Shown piece by piece: positions 3,393 through 27,890 of a stretch of DNA of 35,306 nucleotides (positions are counted from its first letter, which is position 1; each line of letters begins with the position of its first letter). A program made the translations under genes and the position numbers. The notes beneath the pieces are model-generated. The model made no database searches, had not been told where the DNA came from, and was given only the letters and a program-made list of their open reading frames with translations. The DNA is from a virus, in the IMG/VR virus record IMGVR_UViG_3300046777_000516, positions 1-35,306 of that record. The stretch is one strand, 5' to 3'.

Positions 3393-5384
3393 TTATTTCT
3401 TTTTTCGGATTACAACATTTGACCTCCATTCATGCCGACATGACGGCGATGCGGGTTTCCCGGCACCTTGCCCCCACCAACCACCACCGCGATCGAACAC
3501 GGAATATCCCAAGCGTTGAGATAGTGTTTCGATTTCGCGCCGTGTCCAATACCGACCCAGATCCATCAATTTCACGCAGAACGGACGCGATGGATGTTCT
3601 TCCGTATTTCTTTGCGTCGATGGCACCTCTGGTTTCCATTCATACGAATAACGGATTTCAAACCGTGTGCGTGATGGTTCGTCGACAATCTCGCTTACCG
3701 GGCGCGTCGGACGCAATCCTCCACCCCTTCCGGTCGCTAAAACTTCCATATCGACCATTTTCTTTATCCGCGCCTCAACGTCCGTGAGCGGCCTCCGGAT
3801 CGCTTTGGCGATGTCCGCCGGAGGTGTAAGCGGTTGGCGTTGGAGGATCTCGAGAATCTTAACGTCGTCGGCTTCCGTGATGTCCGCGAACTTTAACGGC
3901 GAAGATTGAACGATGTCGAAATTCTCGCGGTGTTCACCGTACTCACGGAACGCGGCGATCGTGTCATCCAATGATAAATTTTCGCTGAATTGTTCTTCCG
4001 CGCCGATCATCGTGTTCACCTCCTCATCGCTCAATCCGTAACCGCTTCGTAGCATCATTGACGCTTGTTCGCGTGTGATCTTACCCTTTGAAAACTCCCG
4101 GACGATCCGCGTCATTTGCTGCCATTGGCGACCCGACATCGACCGGAGGTTATCATTCACCGTTTCAGAACTTTGAGCGGCGGGAATGCCCGTTTCCGTG
4201 GGCGTGGGAGCGGTTATGTACTTGCTTTCGTCAATGCCCGCCTTTTCGAGGATCCACTCTCGCGGAGCGACGGATGTAATCGCCGCCTCGGATAATTCCA
4301 ATGCAATCGGTTCGACTGGGATTATCTCGAGTTCGGAGGATGATCCGGAATAGGAAAGCAACCGCGTGAACACCCCCTCTAGGTATTGTTGTTTGTCGTT
4401 GACGTAGGTATTTTTGAAAATTTCATAGGCATCCCGCATCTGGGAACGCGTGCCGAGTTGTCCCGGCTCCTGAATGCCGAACAATGTCGGCGTGGTGATT
4501 TGATGCCCCGCGAAAATGTTTTGCTGAATAATCGTATCGACACGCCCGAAATCCTCTTTCGTGAGATCCGACGCGCCCAGATCCTCGATGATCGGTTTTT
4601 GCCCGGCGTTGTCGACGAATGAGATCATGAATTTCTTCCCGTCCGATCCGCCGAAGGTATCCCGGAATCGGCGATCAAGGTTTCTTTGTTCTTCGACCGG
4701 AGGCGTACCGTTCGGTAGCGTGATCAACTTGGAGGCGTTGAATCCGGTTTGCGCGTTTCCGAGTACGTGTTTAGATACCTCGATGTCGGATTCGATGTAA
4801 TTCAACGCTCCCAAATATCCCGGCAAGGCATAAGCGTCCAACCCCGGGCGGTACTCTTTTATGTAAAGGATTTGACGGCCTTCCGGTTGTTTTGGATTGA
4901 AAGCGGGAATCGTGTCGATCTTACCGCGACGATCGCGCCATCCGTCGGCCTTGTACCAGAATGAGGTGTTATCCGTTGAGGTACGAACCTTTGTGTAATC
5001 GATGTGCGACATAGACGCGATGGATCCGCCGACGACCGACCATACGATGTCGAGGTACGCACCCCCGAAAATCTCGATGTCGAGCGATATTTTCCGCGTA
5101 AGTTCCGCGAGTGATTCGTAGGCGTTTGGTTGATCGATGAACCGTTGCGCGGCGGCGTCATCCGGGTTGTCGGACTTCCACCCATTGCCCGTGATATAGT
5201 TCACCTTGCCCTTTACGATCGCGTTATGCTTCGCCGACTTATTGAAAAGATCGAGCAAATAGTCCGGATAGTCGTTCAACTCGCCGAACTCGATGTATCC
5301 TTGTCCCCGACGCTCCCGATACTCCGGTTGACGCGCTTCGGCGAACCTTAACACCGCGATATTGTTCAAATATTGTTCCGTCAT
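3393..5384 (-). CDS. Portal protein with C-terminal winged-helix and MuF-like extension
   Basis: A 663-residue protein starting at an ATG that overlaps the preceding stop (ATGA). Residues about 1-400 match a portal: an N-terminal stretch with KHNAIVKGKVNYITGNGW, a central beta region and an acidic, helical stem region with QQNIFAGHQITTPTLFGI. Residues about 500-560 (DDVKILEILQRQPLTPPADIAKAI...) look like a winged helix. The last ~70 residues carry RPFC, YWTRREIETLSQRLGYSVFDRGGGWW and a final CRHEW-x-S pattern, which resembles the Cys/His-containing C-terminus of MuF-type minor head proteins. It forms the dodecameric DNA entry ring at one capsid vertex. The connector follows and the capsid genes precede it. 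Confidence 0.8.
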   Translation of the reverse strand: MTEQYLNNIAVLRFAEARQPEYRERRGQGYIEFGELNDYPDYLLDLFNKSAKHNAIVKGKVNYITGNGWKSDNPDDAAAQRFIDQPNAYESLAELTRKISLDIEIFGGAYLDIVWSVVGGSIASMSHIDYTKVRTSTDNTSFWYKADGWRDRRGKIDTIPAFNPKQPEGRQILYIKEYRPGLDAYALPGYLGALNYIESDIEVSKHVLGNAQTGFNASKLITLPNGTPPVEEQRNLDRRFRDTFGGSDGKKFMISFVDNAGQKPIIEDLGASDLTKEDFGRVDTIIQQNIFAGHQITTPTLFGIQEPGQLGTRSQMRDAYEIFKNTYVNDKQQYLEGVFTRLLSYSGSSSELEIIPVEPIALELSEAAITSVAPREWILEKAGIDESKYITAPTPTETGIPAAQSSETVNDNLRSMSGRQWQQMTRIVREFSKGKITREQASMMLRSGYGLSDEEVNTMIGAEEQFSENLSLDDTIAAFREYGEHRENFDIVQSSPLKFADITEADDVKILEILQRQPLTPPADIAKAIRRPLTDVEARIKKMVDMEVLATGRGGGLRPTRPVSEIVDEPSRTRFEIRYSYEWKPEVPSTQRNTEEHPSRPFCVKLMDLGRYWTRREIETLSQRLGYSVFDRGGGWWGQGAGKPASPSCRHEWRSNVVIRKKK

Positions 5385-20525: not shown

Positions 20526-21110
20526 TTATAATCGGTTTTTTTCTTCCTTGAGTTTTTCCATCAGGAACCCGCCGATATAGAGTCCATGCTCCCTCCAGAA
20601 TTTTACAAGTTCAGACGCCTCTGGATAATGTTCAGACTCGAACTCAATCTGTATCGCTTTTTTCACGCCTGATGACATTTCGGATAACTGATCCGCCATG
20701 TCAGCGTCATCGAGTACCGAATAGTCCAAGTCCTTCGGCGAGCTGAAATTAGGGATATCCAGCCCCCAGTCCATCAGCGATTCATTGTCCCAGTCGTTCG
20801 CCAACATTTCCCAATCCCAATCACCGAACCCGACGTTATCCTTTATGATGAACTCCCGTTGCTGATCCTCCGTAAGATCCTCTGCCCGAATAATTGGAAC
20901 CATCTTCAACCCGGCTTCTTTGCACGCCTTCAACCGCATATTTCCGCCCAATACAATCATGTCATCATTCACGACGATCGGGCGGAGTTTCAGCATCTCT
21001 GGGAATGTCTTGATCGATTCGACCAACTTCCGGAACTTTTCATCTCGAATTGTCCGGGGATTGTTCGGATTCGCTTTGACCTCCGATATTTTGACCTCTT
21101 GAATTTTCAT
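20526..21110 (-). CDS. ParB/Srx-like N-terminal domain protein
   Basis: A 194-residue protein whose ATG overlaps the preceding stop. It has NPNNPRTIRDEKFRKLVESIKTFPEMLKLRPIVV, then VLGGNMRLKACKEAGLKMVPII and EDLTEDQQREFIIKDN, the order of the ParB N-terminal domain (N-x-R, phosphate-binding GG-x-x-R-x-x-A). The C-terminal part is acidic and helical with no ParB DNA-binding HTH. Phages carry such stand-alone domains with nuclease, ATPase or DNA-modification roles, and ParB-like genes have been noted next to phage base-modification genes. Here it directly precedes the dioxygenase gene, suggesting a role in DNA modification or genome selection. Confidence 0.75.
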   Translation of the reverse strand: MKIQEVKISEVKANPNNPRTIRDEKFRKLVESIKTFPEMLKLRPIVVNDDMIVLGGNMRLKACKEAGLKMVPIIRAEDLTEDQQREFIIKDNVGFGDWDWEMLANDWDNESLMDWGLDIPNFSSPKDLDYSVLDDADMADQLSEMSSGVKKAIQIEFESEHYPEASELVKFWREHGLYIGGFLMEKLKEEKNRL

Positions 21111-21808
21111 CGTCTGCGTAATATTCGGTTATGAACCACGGATCCGATGTACTCCCAATCATCGTTCTGCGTGAACGGTGGAAATACCTCGTCGACCGCT
21201 TTCGATACTGATTCAATGCCTCTGAAATATCCGTCCGGCATATCCAACTGATTATTGCAATCGTCGATAACCAGATACCCGCCCGACTTCACCAATGGCG
21301 CGTAATGCTCAACGTCGGATTTGACCACATCGTAAGCGTGTCCGCCGTCGATGTAAAGGATATCAAAATAATCATCCCGATCAAGGCTTTTCACCAATTC
21401 AATAATGCCGGGATCCGTGGATGATCCCTTTATTAAATTCCAATCATGCGGGATGGAAAAGGTATTGTGCAATTTTGCGATGTCGTGCGGATAGTTGCTT
21501 TCCCAATGCCCATCGCTTGAATCAAGCGGCGTAACCCCCCAGCGATCTACGGATTTACCGGATTTCGTGGCGAGATACTCCACGATCGAGAGAATCTGTC
21601 CACGGAATACTCCGATCTCTAAAAATGTGAAATCATCCGGCATCTGATCGATGATGCGCTTCCACATCCACAAAAAACACCGCTCACCGAACCCGAAGGC
21701 GTTGGCTTCGATCCAATCTCGGTAAGATTTCAGAAACGGATCAGCGTTCACTTTGGCGGTATAATCTGCGACGATCTCCGCCATCGGTCGTTTTAGTTCC
21801 TCAATCAT
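21107..21808 (-). CDS. Class I SAM-dependent methyltransferase
   Basis: A 233-residue protein, coupled by a 4-base overlap at both ends. The SAM-binding region contains FTFLEIGVFRGQILSI (motif I, E-x-G-x-x-x-G), a mid-domain DYFDILYIDGGHAYDVVKSDVEHYAPLVKSGGYLVIDDCN, and a C-terminal part ending VVHNRILRRR. The YIDGGHAYDVVKSD element is typical of Methyltransf_24/CmcI-like enzymes, which methylate small molecules or sugars. In this operon it could methylate a sugar carried by a modified base or a surface glycan. No DNA-binding motif is seen. Confidence 0.8.
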   Translation of the reverse strand: MIEELKRPMAEIVADYTAKVNADPFLKSYRDWIEANAFGFGERCFLWMWKRIIDQMPDDFTFLEIGVFRGQILSIVEYLATKSGKSVDRWGVTPLDSSDGHWESNYPHDIAKLHNTFSIPHDWNLIKGSSTDPGIIELVKSLDRDDYFDILYIDGGHAYDVVKSDVEHYAPLVKSGGYLVIDDCNNQLDMPDGYFRGIESVSKAVDEVFPPFTQNDDWEYIGSVVHNRILRRR

Positions 21809-22416
21809 AAGCGTTCGTAAAATTTAGTCATGTCGGTTCGACCGTTCCCGTGGATAAATAGCGGCATCGTTCCGGTTACATTGTTCTGGAGGCGATCGTA
21901 AACGAATGAGAAATCGCCATCCGTTTCGAATGCAATCGATTGAAAGTTCACGCAATTCGAGTCAATTCCAACGCCTTGTCCGCAAGCGCGGTCGGTGTAC
22001 CAAATTTGGTCGTTATCCGCGTCATTCCACGGAAACAAGTCGACAAGATGCAGAAAAGTTTTTGAATTGCCGTATATCTGTCCGGAGTTGGGATACCTCC
22101 AAGGCGTACCGTACTCAAAGAAATGCGCCTTTTCGGGGTGCGGGAAACATTGCTTTTCGCCGGATATGATCACCCCGTCCGTCCACTTCACAAAATCACG
22201 CGGCGGAGCGATGCAGTACGTGTCAAAGGCGTCCATCAAGATAAATTCCTCATCGCCAGACTGCCGTAGGTATTTTGCGAGTTCGCTGATCTTGTACCCC
22301 AAACCCCGGAACGGTTCGACGATCTCCACGTAATTCCACCCGTGACGGCGTAAGGATTCGACGAGCTTATGTTGCCCGGGATGATTCGGGTTGTCGCTTA
22401 TGATGATGACCTTCAT
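21805..22416 (-). CDS. PLOD-type glycosyltransferase
   Basis: The frame is open upstream to 22584, but the ATG at 22416 (MKVIIISDNPNHPGQ) overlaps the previous TGA by 4 bases and is preferred; 203 residues. It has a Rossmann-like start, then EEFILMDAFDTYCIAPP, VIISGEKQCFPHPE and RYPNSGQIYGN. D-x-F-D as metal-binding motif, followed by S/G-E/A-K-x-C-x-P and NSG-x-x-G, fits the glycosyltransferase domain of procollagen lysyl hydroxylase (PLOD) and related enzymes. Such a domain normally transfers a sugar to a hydroxylated substrate, which fits a pathway with a dioxygenase in the same operon. Confidence 0.65.
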   Translation of the reverse strand: MKVIIISDNPNHPGQHKLVESLRRHGWNYVEIVEPFRGLGYKISELAKYLRQSGDEEFILMDAFDTYCIAPPRDFVKWTDGVIISGEKQCFPHPEKAHFFEYGTPWRYPNSGQIYGNSKTFLHLVDLFPWNDADNDQIWYTDRACGQGVGIDSNCVNFQSIAFETDGDFSFVYDRLQNNVTGTMPLFIHGNGRTDMTKFYERL

Positions 22417-23207
22417 GATTGAAACGGGTTGTAATAAATTGGACGGGATCCGTTTCGGTACTCCTTGGCTATCCGGATCACCTCTTGCGTAACCTCGGAG
22501 GAATGCGATTCCTTCCATTTTTGGTATGGCGTGTCGCCCGGATCGATGTGATCGATCTCTATGTGTGTGAGGAACACCGACCAATACCCGGCGGCGGCGG
22601 CTCGATGTGCGGCGAGTACGTCGTCGTACCCGTACAATGACGGTTGATATAAATACCCAATCTTGTCGAGAAATGCGGAGTTATACATCTGGCACGTACC
22701 CATGACATGAAAGACACGCTCCCCAACGATCCATCTTTCCCCGGCTTGATGCGGTAGCATGAATAGCGTGGAGCGTAAATCCGGTTGTTCATGTTCGGGA
22801 TGCTCCCAACAATCTTTCCGCTTCAGTCCGCATATCCCGATACGCGGCTCCCGCTCGATCGCATCCCGGAGTTGATCAATCCATTTCAGATTGTGGATGA
22901 ATACGTCGTTATCCATCTTCACGCAATGTTGGCCGGGTTGGCGATACCTCCACGCCTTGTTGATTGCCTCCGCCGTTCCTATGTTCTTTTCATTTGTTAT
23001 TAAGATAACGGACGGGTGATCCGACACGTTCCGTAAATATTTGCGCGTTTTCGGGCAAGTCGATGCGTTGTCAATTATGTAAAGTTCATGGATGCCTCCG
23101 GTACGATCAATCGACTGCAATACTTGATCGATGCAGCGCATTGTAAATTCCGCCCGTTTATTGTCCGGCGAATCATGCACCGCCATCCCGATTAAAACTG
23201 ATTTCAT
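22413..23207 (-). CDS. GT2-family (GT-A fold) glycosyltransferase
   Basis: The frame is open upstream to 23249 but the ATG at 23207 (MKSVLIGMAVHDSPDN) overlaps the preceding TGA by 4 bases; 264 residues. Motifs: IDNASTCPKTRKYL, then NIGTAEAINKAWR and HCVKMDNDVFIHN (D-x-D, nucleotide-sugar metal site), then FHVMGTCQMYNSAFLDKIGYL and GYDDVLAAHRAAAAGY (ED-type catalytic region). These follow the GT2 order. The acceptor is unknown: either a modified base or a surface glycan. It is the middle of three consecutive glycosyltransferases. Confidence 0.85.
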   Translation of the reverse strand: MKSVLIGMAVHDSPDNKRAEFTMRCIDQVLQSIDRTGGIHELYIIDNASTCPKTRKYLRNVSDHPSVILITNEKNIGTAEAINKAWRYRQPGQHCVKMDNDVFIHNLKWIDQLRDAIEREPRIGICGLKRKDCWEHPEHEQPDLRSTLFMLPHQAGERWIVGERVFHVMGTCQMYNSAFLDKIGYLYQPSLYGYDDVLAAHRAAAAGYWSVFLTHIEIDHIDPGDTPYQKWKESHSSEVTQEVIRIAKEYRNGSRPIYYNPFQS

Positions 23208-24244
23208 TTGATAAGGGTTTGATAAAGTTCTTTGCGCGTGATGTTCCATTTTTTAAGATCGTGATTCTCCCGGCACCATGCACCGTTGGCCTCGCCCATG
23301 TCGAATCGATATTGCGGATCCTTTGCGAGATTCCGGAACGTATGATACCAATCTTGTTGGCGGTCGATCTTCAAGGCGTGAGGACAATCATCGTACGGCG
23401 GAACGTTTGACACGATGATCGGGATATTTTTACATCCGGCTTCCAGTACTTTGACATTGGACTTGCATGAATTGAATACCGAATCAACAAGCGGCGCGAC
23501 CGCGATATCCGCCTCCGCGTAGAATGCCATGTACTGATCCGGAGGTAAAGGATTGCGAACGTATCCCTCCATTCGGAACCCGCAAAGATAGTCCGAAATC
23601 ATCCGATGCCATATCGGAGTCACTCGCGGATTGGAATCATCGTACCCGGCCATGATCATAAACAACCGATCACGGAGCCACGTATCCGACGCGATGCGTT
23701 TCATCGGGTTTTGGAGTAATTCCACATCCTTTTCGTGGGTGATCCCTCCGGCATACAATACCCGGAGCCGTTTTGTGTCCTCAAATATTCCGTCCTTATG
23801 GATCCCGGCCACCTTCTGCATCGTGAACTGATCCTCGCCATACGGCAAGGCGTTCGGGATTATCTCGCAATTCGGATTGTGCAACAATACCGCCCGGCGG
23901 AGGCGTTCATGTGTGACCGTGACAAGATCAGCGGCGGCGATATGATCAACAACCACGGCGGAAGGGAATCCGGCCGAGAGGATATGCCACGGATCGAGTT
24001 TCCAATAATCGTCGATGTCCACGATCATCTTGAAACCGTACTTTGTTCGAAAATCCAACAATGTCTGCAACTCGATGCCGGGGATATAGCGGTTGAGCAT
24101 CACGATGTCGAACCCGCGTTGTAGTACCTCGTCATTGATGAAATCCGTAAATAGGACATAGACCCCCGGCATCTTGGATAGCGGTAGCATAACGCGGTGG
24201 TACCCGACCCCGCTCATCGGTTGAGTGACGGCAAGGATCCTCAT
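23204..24244 (-). CDS. GT4-like (GT-B fold) glycosyltransferase
   Basis: A 346-residue protein starting at an ATG with 4-base overlap to the preceding stop. The N-terminal domain starts MRILAVTQPMSGVGYHRVMLPL, then KMIVDIDDYWKLDP; the C-terminal half has RVLYAGGITHEKDVELL and, near the end, YAEADIAVAPLVDSVFNSCKSNVKVLEAGCKNIPIIVSNVPPY, the E-x-G-containing nucleotide-sugar donor site of GT-B enzymes. Domain order and length match GT4/GT1-like enzymes. It is the first gene of the coupled modification operon. It likely uses a nucleotide sugar; the acceptor could be hydroxymethylated cytosine or host surface glycan. Confidence 0.8.
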   Translation of the reverse strand: MRILAVTQPMSGVGYHRVMLPLSKMPGVYVLFTDFINDEVLQRGFDIVMLNRYIPGIELQTLLDFRTKYGFKMIVDIDDYWKLDPWHILSAGFPSAVVVDHIAAADLVTVTHERLRRAVLLHNPNCEIIPNALPYGEDQFTMQKVAGIHKDGIFEDTKRLRVLYAGGITHEKDVELLQNPMKRIASDTWLRDRLFMIMAGYDDSNPRVTPIWHRMISDYLCGFRMEGYVRNPLPPDQYMAFYAEADIAVAPLVDSVFNSCKSNVKVLEAGCKNIPIIVSNVPPYDDCPHALKIDRQQDWYHTFRNLAKDPQYRFDMGEANGAWCRENHDLKKWNITRKELYQTLIK

Positions 24245-26952: not shown

Positions 26953-26985
26953 TGAAGATAAAACAAGTTTAGAACAAATTACAAA
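26953..26985 (-). promoter_or_regulatory. Bacteroidota-type promoter (TTTG-N21-TATCTTCA)
   Basis: On the minus strand TTTG (26985-26982), 21 bases, then TATCTTCA (26960-26953). The -7 box differs from TAnnTTTG at the last three positions only partly (TTCA). The spacer shares AACTTGTTTTA with the promoter at 33170-33201. It overlaps the end of the methyltransferase gene and points to the ATG at 26930. Confidence 0.6.
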
Positions 26986-27890
26986 TATTTATTTTCGTAT
27001 TCTTCAATTGTTTTGAATATTTGATAAACAACTTGCGGCACTACGGCATTTCCGTAGGCTTTGATGGATTCGTTTCGCCACTTTGAAAAGGTAATTCCGT
27101 CCAATTCGTGGGAAAGCCCATCATTTCGGCCACAAACTGGGGATTGAGTTGGGAACTTTTCCCAACTTGGGCAAATGCATCCGGAAGCGAATTTGTATGA
27201 TCCCGCCCCGAATTTTTCAGACTTTCCGATGTTCTTGCACCTTTGTAATCTCTTGTTGTCGGAGTTGGCAACATCCCGTGAAACATCAAGGCGTCCAATA
27301 TCGAATTTGGTCCTTCCTCCCCGTTGATTCGACTTCGCATCGTTTTTGCCCCCGATTCCTTCAACGCTTGCACCCGTTCCGGATGATCCCGTTGAACACT
27401 TGTCGGAGTAGGCAACAAAGAAAACCCGGTCACGGCGGTGCGGGGCGTTGACGGATGCAGCAGAAAGTACAAACGCTTGTACTTCGTACCCTTGATTTTC
27501 CAAGTCAGTTTGCACCTCTTCGAAGACCAATCCCCCGTCCCAATTAACAATTCCGAAAACGTTTTCGCCCACAACCCAACGTGGACGAACTTCCCGAATG
27601 ACTCGCAGCATCTCCGGCCAGAGGTGGCGGTCATCTTCTTTCCCAAGTCGCTTTCCGGCCATTGAGTAGGGCTGACAAGGGAATCCTCCTGAAATAATGT
27701 CAATTGTTCCATGATATTTTGTAAAATTTGATTTTGTGATGTCGGTAAATAATTCGGCATCCGGCCAATAGTGATGCAATACCTTTTGCCCGAACTCATT
27801 CCATTCACAATGAAATTTATTCTCCCATCCCATCCATTGAGCGGCAAGATCGAATCCTCCAATTCCCGAAAATAACGATCCGTGTGTCAT
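26979..27890 (-). CDS. C5-cytosine-specific DNA methyltransferase
   Basis: A 303-residue protein starting at an ATG. Complete C5-MTase motifs: GSLFSGIGGFD (I, residues 4-14), GGFPCQPYS (IV, catalytic C72), GENVFG (VI, E109), VNAPHRRDRVFFVAY (VIII) and YGNAVVPQVVYQIF (X) near the C-terminus. A central variable region with VANSDNKRLQR and KFPTQSPVCGRNDGL is the target recognition part. It makes 5-methylcytosine in DNA; the sequence specificity cannot be read. No restriction enzyme is adjacent. It likely protects phage DNA or supplies 5mC to the dioxygenase. A second conserved protein is encoded in the +1-shifted frame across most of the gene. Confidence 0.95.
   Translation of the reverse strand: MTHGSLFSGIGGFDLAAQWMGWENKFHCEWNEFGQKVLHHYWPDAELFTDITKSNFTKYHGTIDIISGGFPCQPYSMAGKRLGKEDDRHLWPEMLRVIREVRPRWVVGENVFGIVNWDGGLVFEEVQTDLENQGYEVQAFVLSAASVNAPHRRDRVFFVAYSDKCSTGSSGTGASVEGIGGKNDAKSNQRGGRTKFDIGRLDVSRDVANSDNKRLQRCKNIGKSEKFGAGSYKFASGCICPSWEKFPTQSPVCGRNDGLSHELDGITFSKWRNESIKAYGNAVVPQVVYQIFKTIEEYENKYL
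27041..27712 (-). CDS. Overprinted conserved phage protein within the methyltransferase gene
   Basis: A 223-residue frame (longest to 27862; the ATG at 27712, MEQLTLFQED, fits the family start) lies on the same strand, in a different frame, entirely inside the C5-methyltransferase gene. It is not random-looking: LVSPTQWPESDLGKKMTATSGRRCCESFGKFVHVGLWAKTF, CKLTWKIKGTKYKRLYFLLHPSTPRTAVTGFSLLPTPT, MLPTPTTRDYKGARTSESL and LNPQFVAEMMGFPTNWTELPF match a protein pattern I remember widely from phages, often annotated as hypothetical or methyltransferase-associated, with repeated LLPTP motifs and a final G-F-P-x-x-W-T. Its function is unknown. Translation from the internal ATG lacks a clear Shine-Dalgarno. 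Confidence 0.65.
   Translation of the reverse strand: MEQLTLFQEDSLVSPTQWPESDLGKKMTATSGRRCCESFGKFVHVGLWAKTFSELLIGTGDWSSKRCKLTWKIKGTKYKRLYFLLHPSTPRTAVTGFSLLPTPTSVQRDHPERVQALKESGAKTMRSRINGEEGPNSILDALMFHGMLPTPTTRDYKGARTSESLKNSGRDHTNSLPDAFAQVGKSSQLNPQFVAEMMGFPTNWTELPFQSGETNPSKPTEMP

Follow-up and report, generated by a model that had tools for sequence, protein, structure and literature searches.

A phage C5-cytosine DNA methyltransferase that probably draws its target-recognition half from a nested, overlapping reading frame

The closest described relatives of the locus analysed here are C5-cytosine DNA methyltransferases that are made as two products. The two-subunit make-up of one of these, M.EcoHK31I, was reportedly established by Lee, Kam and Shaw in 1995. 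The gene for its large subunit also contains, in another frame, the coding sequence of the small one. In the passages of PMC3404938 that treat this enzyme (target YGGCCR), the large subunit is described as carrying motifs I–VIII and X along with a predicted recognition domain and the small subunit as carrying motif IX only; the same source describes the M.AquI type, in which two polypeptides are divided after motif VIII. PMC5601072 also describes, for Streptococcus thermophilus 5093-group phages, pneumococcal phage MM1 and Tn5252, two C5-methyltransferase products that are read in different frames from completely overlapping DNA. Here we report that the viral DNA analysed (hereafter the window, a stretch of 35,306 nucleotides) has a pair of overlapping frames that very likely encode a single two-subunit C5-cytosine DNA methyltransferase, in which the outer product, alpha, would be the catalytic subunit and the nested product, beta, would provide the small domain in trans. 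The elements of the locus, all on the minus strand, are as follows.

26979–27890, minus strand: alpha, the C5-cytosine DNA methyltransferase large subunit (ATG 27890, stop ending at 26979, 303 aa), with motifs I–VIII and X and no recognisable motif IX
27041–27712, minus strand: beta, a nested ORF in the +1 frame relative to alpha (ATG 27712, stop ending at 27041, 223 aa), the predicted target-recognition and motif IX subunit
27663–27689, minus strand: alpha motif IV, GGFPCQPYS, with the catalytic Cys, overlapping beta codons for approximately QEDSLVSPTQ and invariant in alignment A5
27692–27706, minus strand: beta QLTLF, a clamp-binding-like pentapeptide directly after the start codon, noted from motif enrichment across relatives
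27404–27418, minus strand: first LLPTP copy of beta, where the alpha frame reads VAYSDK
27260–27274, minus strand: second LPTP copy of beta (MLPTP), where the alpha frame reads VANSDN
27101–27148, minus strand: motif IX-like element of beta, LNPQFVAEMMGFPTNW, assigned by sequence and profile comparison
27090–27386, minus strand: alpha residues 169–267, predicted to be disordered (mostly pLDDT < 50), where a recognition domain and motif IX would be expected and where codon-position constraint is reversed
27033–27056, minus strand: alpha motif X, YGNAVVPQ, at the end of beta and past it, located by sequence, alignment and model

Both frames are present, as the initial annotation had said; alpha runs from 27890 to 26979 and the shifted frame has 223 codons from ATG 27712, and inspection by eye agreed that alpha keeps motifs I, IV, VI, VIII and X. 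The region has no Rfam matches. Elsewhere in the window, positions 21107–24244 (minus strand) contain what by eye is a cluster of glycosyltransferase-like ORFs with a class I methyltransferase-like ORF.

Alpha has the features of the catalytic half of a C5 methyltransferase. It resembles M.HhaI in sequence (2e-22) and matches the Pfam family DNA_methylase (PF00145) at 3.5e-43 over residues 2–164 only, the profile match ending at 164 of 324, after motif VIII. The AdoMet-binding and catalytic motifs I, IV, VI and VIII of the large domain are present, as is motif X, whose AYGNAVVPQ is conserved in alignment A5 and falls in a part of the AlphaFold2 model with confident helices at residues 270–281 and 285–302. 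This model is mostly confident over residues 1–165 (motifs I–VIII) and 270–302 (motif X) and unstructured over 169–267, most of which is without conserved residues in alignment A5. Its best structural match is M.HhaI (Z 22.9), over about 195 aligned residues, close to what the large domain by itself would span. Neither a recognition domain nor a motif IX of its own was found in the alpha chain, as judged by the end of the Pfam match, the disorder of residues 169–267 and alignment A5, and on the model alpha is without a predicted small domain of its own.

What is missing from alpha appears to be written in the shifted frame. Pfam and NCBIfam searches with beta gave no match; beta does match PHROG family phrog_1008 (6.2e-24) and has homologues in the C-terminal halves of actinophage enzymes. 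This family, whose name, DNA methyltransferase, does not reveal that the member is the non-catalytic half, independently brings together the window's beta, the betas of nested and split forms, and the C-terminal half of fused enzymes. The actinophage relatives were reached through a more distant query and then a follow-up with Streptomyces phage Samy. In Shauna1 gp67, Sanjuju gp4, PFR1 gp45 and JoeyJr gp71 the enzyme is fused, a single frame holding motifs I–VIII, LLPTP, a segment like LNAAFxEWMMGxPxGW and motif X; the LLPTP...LNxxFxEWMMGxPxGW module of beta is there read in the enzyme's own frame, after motif VIII and before motif X. For PFR1 the Pfam methylase match extends to profile position 312, covering motifs IX–X. 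Other actinophages have split pairs (Kratark 78/77, Orcanus 40/41, Samora 34/35 and Samy 49/50), with motifs I–VIII in one ORF and LLPTP, motif IX and motif X in the next, the phase being +1, by computation for Kratark and Orcanus and by reading of the frames for Samora and Samy. The nested form, with the recognition region and motif IX in the +1 frame (beta) and motif X back in the alpha frame, is present in relatives of the window, K1ind3, PMG1, PhiXhv-7, ABMM1, eiAU-183, Pseudomonas phage 5399, R9.1 and BS-TP4, and by eye also in N15, mycobacteriophages Nitzel and Aubs, a Porphyromonas phage and Paenibacillus plasmids.

Profile comparison points the same way. In local mode hhalign aligned beta with the actinophage C-terminal halves at a probability of 97.5 and an E-value, for a single pair, of 8.7e-12; default realignment leaves 23 columns, against 89 in local mode, where the match stretches from the first LLPTP as far as the motif IX element. 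That element, LNPQFVAEMMGFPTNW, is the most conserved in beta and resembles C5-methyltransferase motif IX. Compared directly, beta and canonical motif IX give a very weak match (16 columns, probability 0.9%), so the assignment of motif IX rests on the actinophage intermediates, to which canonical motif IX aligns with a probability of 56% and an E-value of 1e-4. Sequence searches of the PDB found nothing with the beta profile and one chance hit only with the actinophage C-half profile. Modelled alone, beta has low confidence (pLDDT 64, pTM 0.31), and the best Foldseek match of this model in the PDB (E 0.95) is meaningless at that confidence; a poor fold of beta alone is to be expected of a partner-dependent subunit, yet it carries no evidential weight. 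By sequence comparison, beta is homologous to the recognition-domain and motif IX half of the fused and split actinophage C5 methyltransferases, and for this reason it most likely serves the enzyme that surrounds it as a second subunit, very probably the one responsible for target recognition and motif IX. The initial annotation left the second protein without an assigned function and suggested a modulator of methylation or an anti-restriction factor; the actinophage homology makes the enzyme's own recognition and motif IX half the best reading instead.

The alternative that survives best, though we judge it improbable, is that beta is a real overprinted protein outside the enzyme, an accessory factor in anti-restriction or the regulation of methylation that is nested by chance. 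One lineage, L020 and an identical stretch of L021, has a second beta (3729–4271) directly downstream of the nested alpha/beta gene, with its own ATG and an open frame containing LLPTP, MLPTP and LSPRFVAEMMGFPVNWTE. The sequence between its LPTP motifs differs from that of the first copy. Over this second beta the alpha frame has stops and no motifs I–IV, and the extra copy lacks precisely the part that lies opposite alpha motif IV in the first copy. An independent beta without an alpha frame of its own is what an accessory factor would allow; such a copy could also bring the enzyme a second target specificity. The Bacteroides loci L215, L222, L223, L226, L227 and L185 have in-frame TGA codons in alpha and an intact beta, and several of these codons stand at conserved Trp positions (AAE*MGW, FSR*RQ); they reflect either recent decay of alpha or read-through of TGA, and unless one of these holds, an interrupted alpha beside an open beta is odd for an obligate pair. 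Against an accessory factor, however, stand the occurrence of the same module within complete methyltransferases, in frame after motif VIII and ahead of motif X, and as the second gene of split enzymes, the failure to find beta apart from a methyltransferase locus anywhere among the loci fetched, and the alpha model, which would be left without a small domain if beta were excluded.

We favor a model in which alpha and beta are the two subunits of one enzyme. Alpha would form the large domain, with motifs I–VIII binding AdoMet and holding the catalytic Cys and motif X completing the fold, and between motifs VIII and X it would have a poorly conserved linker in which stops are avoided. Translation of beta would begin at an internal ATG of its own, in the +1 frame, and the product would give the small domain in trans, that is, target recognition by the variable stretches between the LLPTP motifs, and motif IX (LNPQFVAEMMGFPTNW). 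Beta would bind alpha and set the target sequence, with both subunits needed for activity. Phage orphan methyltransferases usually protect against host restriction, and we infer that the pair methylates a cytosine in a short target and most likely shields the phage DNA in this way. In the window, and in those nested relatives for which both motifs could be placed, motif X belongs to the alpha frame; in Kratark and Orcanus it belongs to the beta frame. A motif X encoded in the alpha frame would account both for the need to keep alpha open across the beta region and for the poor conservation of the rest of that region in alpha. A hypothetical path between the three forms is easy to picture, in which one frameshift upstream of the recognition domain would turn the fused form into the split one and a second, compensating frameshift between motifs IX and X would turn the split form into the nested one.

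The constant +1 phase of both nested and split forms raises another alternative, in which beta is made mainly as a fusion to alpha motifs I–VIII by programmed +1 frameshifting, yielding one polypeptide with a beta-encoded recognition domain. In keeping with it, the first ~88 codons of alpha run in frame into beta in L031 and L165, as if by the gain or loss of one or two bases near alpha GKEDDRHLW, but these joins may be either real frameshifts or assembly indels. A start codon is found near the same place in most relatives' beta, the extra beta of L020 has its own ATG, and with motif X in the alpha frame the fusion would be without that motif. We consider this reading very improbable.

The case for beta as a gene also rests on its relatives, among them L020/L021, where the extra beta stays open over a stopped alpha frame. 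A search of viral contigs and phage records with beta yielded 83 loci, 82 of which have the two frames arranged as in the window, L031 showing a frame break between them. As a fairer test, 60 distinct loci were fetched with the methyltransferase (alpha) protein only, leaving beta unused: in 59 of them the +1 frame stays open across 80% or more of the overlap, the +2 control frame does so in none (0/60), and synonymous shuffling of alpha in these loci keeps on average less than half of the +1 frame open. In the window alone the +1 frame was equally long open in 8 of 200 synonymous shuffles, a marginal result, so a single open frame proves little. When bacterial genome contigs were added, beta was in the same phase in 238 of the 239 cases in which its match falls within one methyltransferase ORF. 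The nested arrangement is, on these sequences, widespread in phages, and an overlap that the initial annotation had called rare is the rule in these methyltransferases. An intact alpha with a broken beta was seen in one lineage (L125/L126), and counts of broken frames say little about which frame is better kept, since retrieval with one protein favors loci in which that protein's frame is intact. Among the relatives, L029 has an HNH-endonuclease-like insertion in the overlap beside beta motif IX (~3880–4260), with alpha extended and the end of beta altered, that by eye looks like a homing element. The Paenibacillus polymyxa plasmid pAP1 (L258) has two beta motif IX copies in its methyltransferase locus, QLNPTWVECLMGFP at 2778 and QLNPAWVECLMGFP at 2988, ~210 bases apart and with beta-frame stops between them.

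Patterns of divergence indicate which frame is constrained where. Across 28 independent pairs with at least 85% of the region after motif VIII aligned and no identity filter, divergence after motif VIII at codon positions 1, 2 and 3 is 0.195, 0.097 and 0.078 in the alpha frame, a reversed pattern, and 0.097, 0.080 and 0.192 in the beta frame. In this region alpha fourfold sites diverge by 0.018 (95% interval 0.006–0.037), compared with 0.314 upstream, and beta fourfold sites by 0.182. Near-frozen alpha fourfold sites and the reversed codon pattern argue that beta is the protein-like frame where the recognition domain is expected, and a separate constraint analysis found the same turnover beyond motif VIII. 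Between motifs IV and VIII, alpha fourfold divergence is 0.211 versus 0.381 in the non-overlapping N-terminus, a reduction indicating that both frames are under selection there. That the shifted frame is a non-coding by-product of alpha codon usage, a view to which the marginal shuffling result and the dictation of part of the beta N-terminus by alpha motif IV lend something, has a negligible probability, since it is contradicted by the reversed codon positions and the near-zero alpha fourfold divergence, and ruled out as a chance open frame by this constraint and the openness of the frame across relatives, with the in-frame actinophage homologues also against it. The proposal of a conserved, truly coding nested gene is upheld by the open frames of the alpha-fetched loci, the constraint pattern and the actinophage homologues, and a search for homologues outside overlaps and for stop codons in relatives, by which that proposal could have fallen, came out in favor of a real gene.

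Beta begins MEQLTLFQED, and QLTLF is a close variant of the bacterial clamp-binding consensus QL(S/D)LF (PMC9690074). In the 22 beta-frame residues leading up to and including motif IV, 90 of 184 distinct loci have a QLxLF-like motif, where alpha-synonymous resampling predicts 2.1; with QxxLxF allowed, 138 loci have it where 7.3 are predicted. The excess is overstated because the resampling ignores shared descent. The motif falls within the first 30 residues in 34 of 76 clusters (~62% identity), with only three hits elsewhere, and takes one of two alternative positions, EQLTLF beside motif IV or KQ[IT]SLF about eight residues earlier; many distant betas are without it. We tentatively raise the idea, which seems to us rather less probable than its opposite, that QLTLF is a functional sliding-clamp (DnaN) tether through which the methyltransferase acts on new DNA at the replication fork. 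If true, this would parallel, in a bacterial virus, the pairing of DNMT1 with PCNA, and the tether would be encoded in a frame that overlaps the catalytic motif region.

These findings would turn many phage "hypothetical proteins" and duplicate "DNA methyltransferase" entries into recognisable half-enzymes, and they caution that the alpha sequence alone is unfit for predicting specificity or for solo expression. The fused, split and nested forms make up a clear natural series that illustrates how a domain can be relocated to an overlapping frame.

The two-product C5-methyltransferase overlap is itself already known, from M.EcoHK31I and the streptococcal phages. No paper that names the second product emerged from a literature search on overprinted methyltransferase genes, which did lead to the streptococcal report, and the spread of the nested form, the reversed constraint, the recognition region on beta and the link to fused and split actinophage enzymes were not found in the literature searched, whose partial coverage makes this no proof of novelty. 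Likened by description, the streptococcal report, in the part that concerns the overlap, calls it striking and does not name the second product as a recognition and motif IX subunit. The actinophage split pairs such as Kratark 78/77 resemble M.AquI; the window differs from M.AquI, which has motif X on the small subunit, in carrying motif X on alpha and in the nesting of beta. The closest likeness is to M.EcoHK31I. As there, alpha has motifs I–VIII and X and is without motif IX, beta would carry motif IX, by position and by its profile match to the actinophage motif IX segment, and the gene for the small subunit overlaps that for the large one in another frame. M.EcoHK31I, however, is a restriction-modification enzyme, whereas the window encodes a phage methyltransferase near which no restriction gene was noticed. 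And whereas the recognition domain of M.EcoHK31I is predicted, by its description, to lie in the large subunit, in the window it is beta that is the constrained frame in that place.
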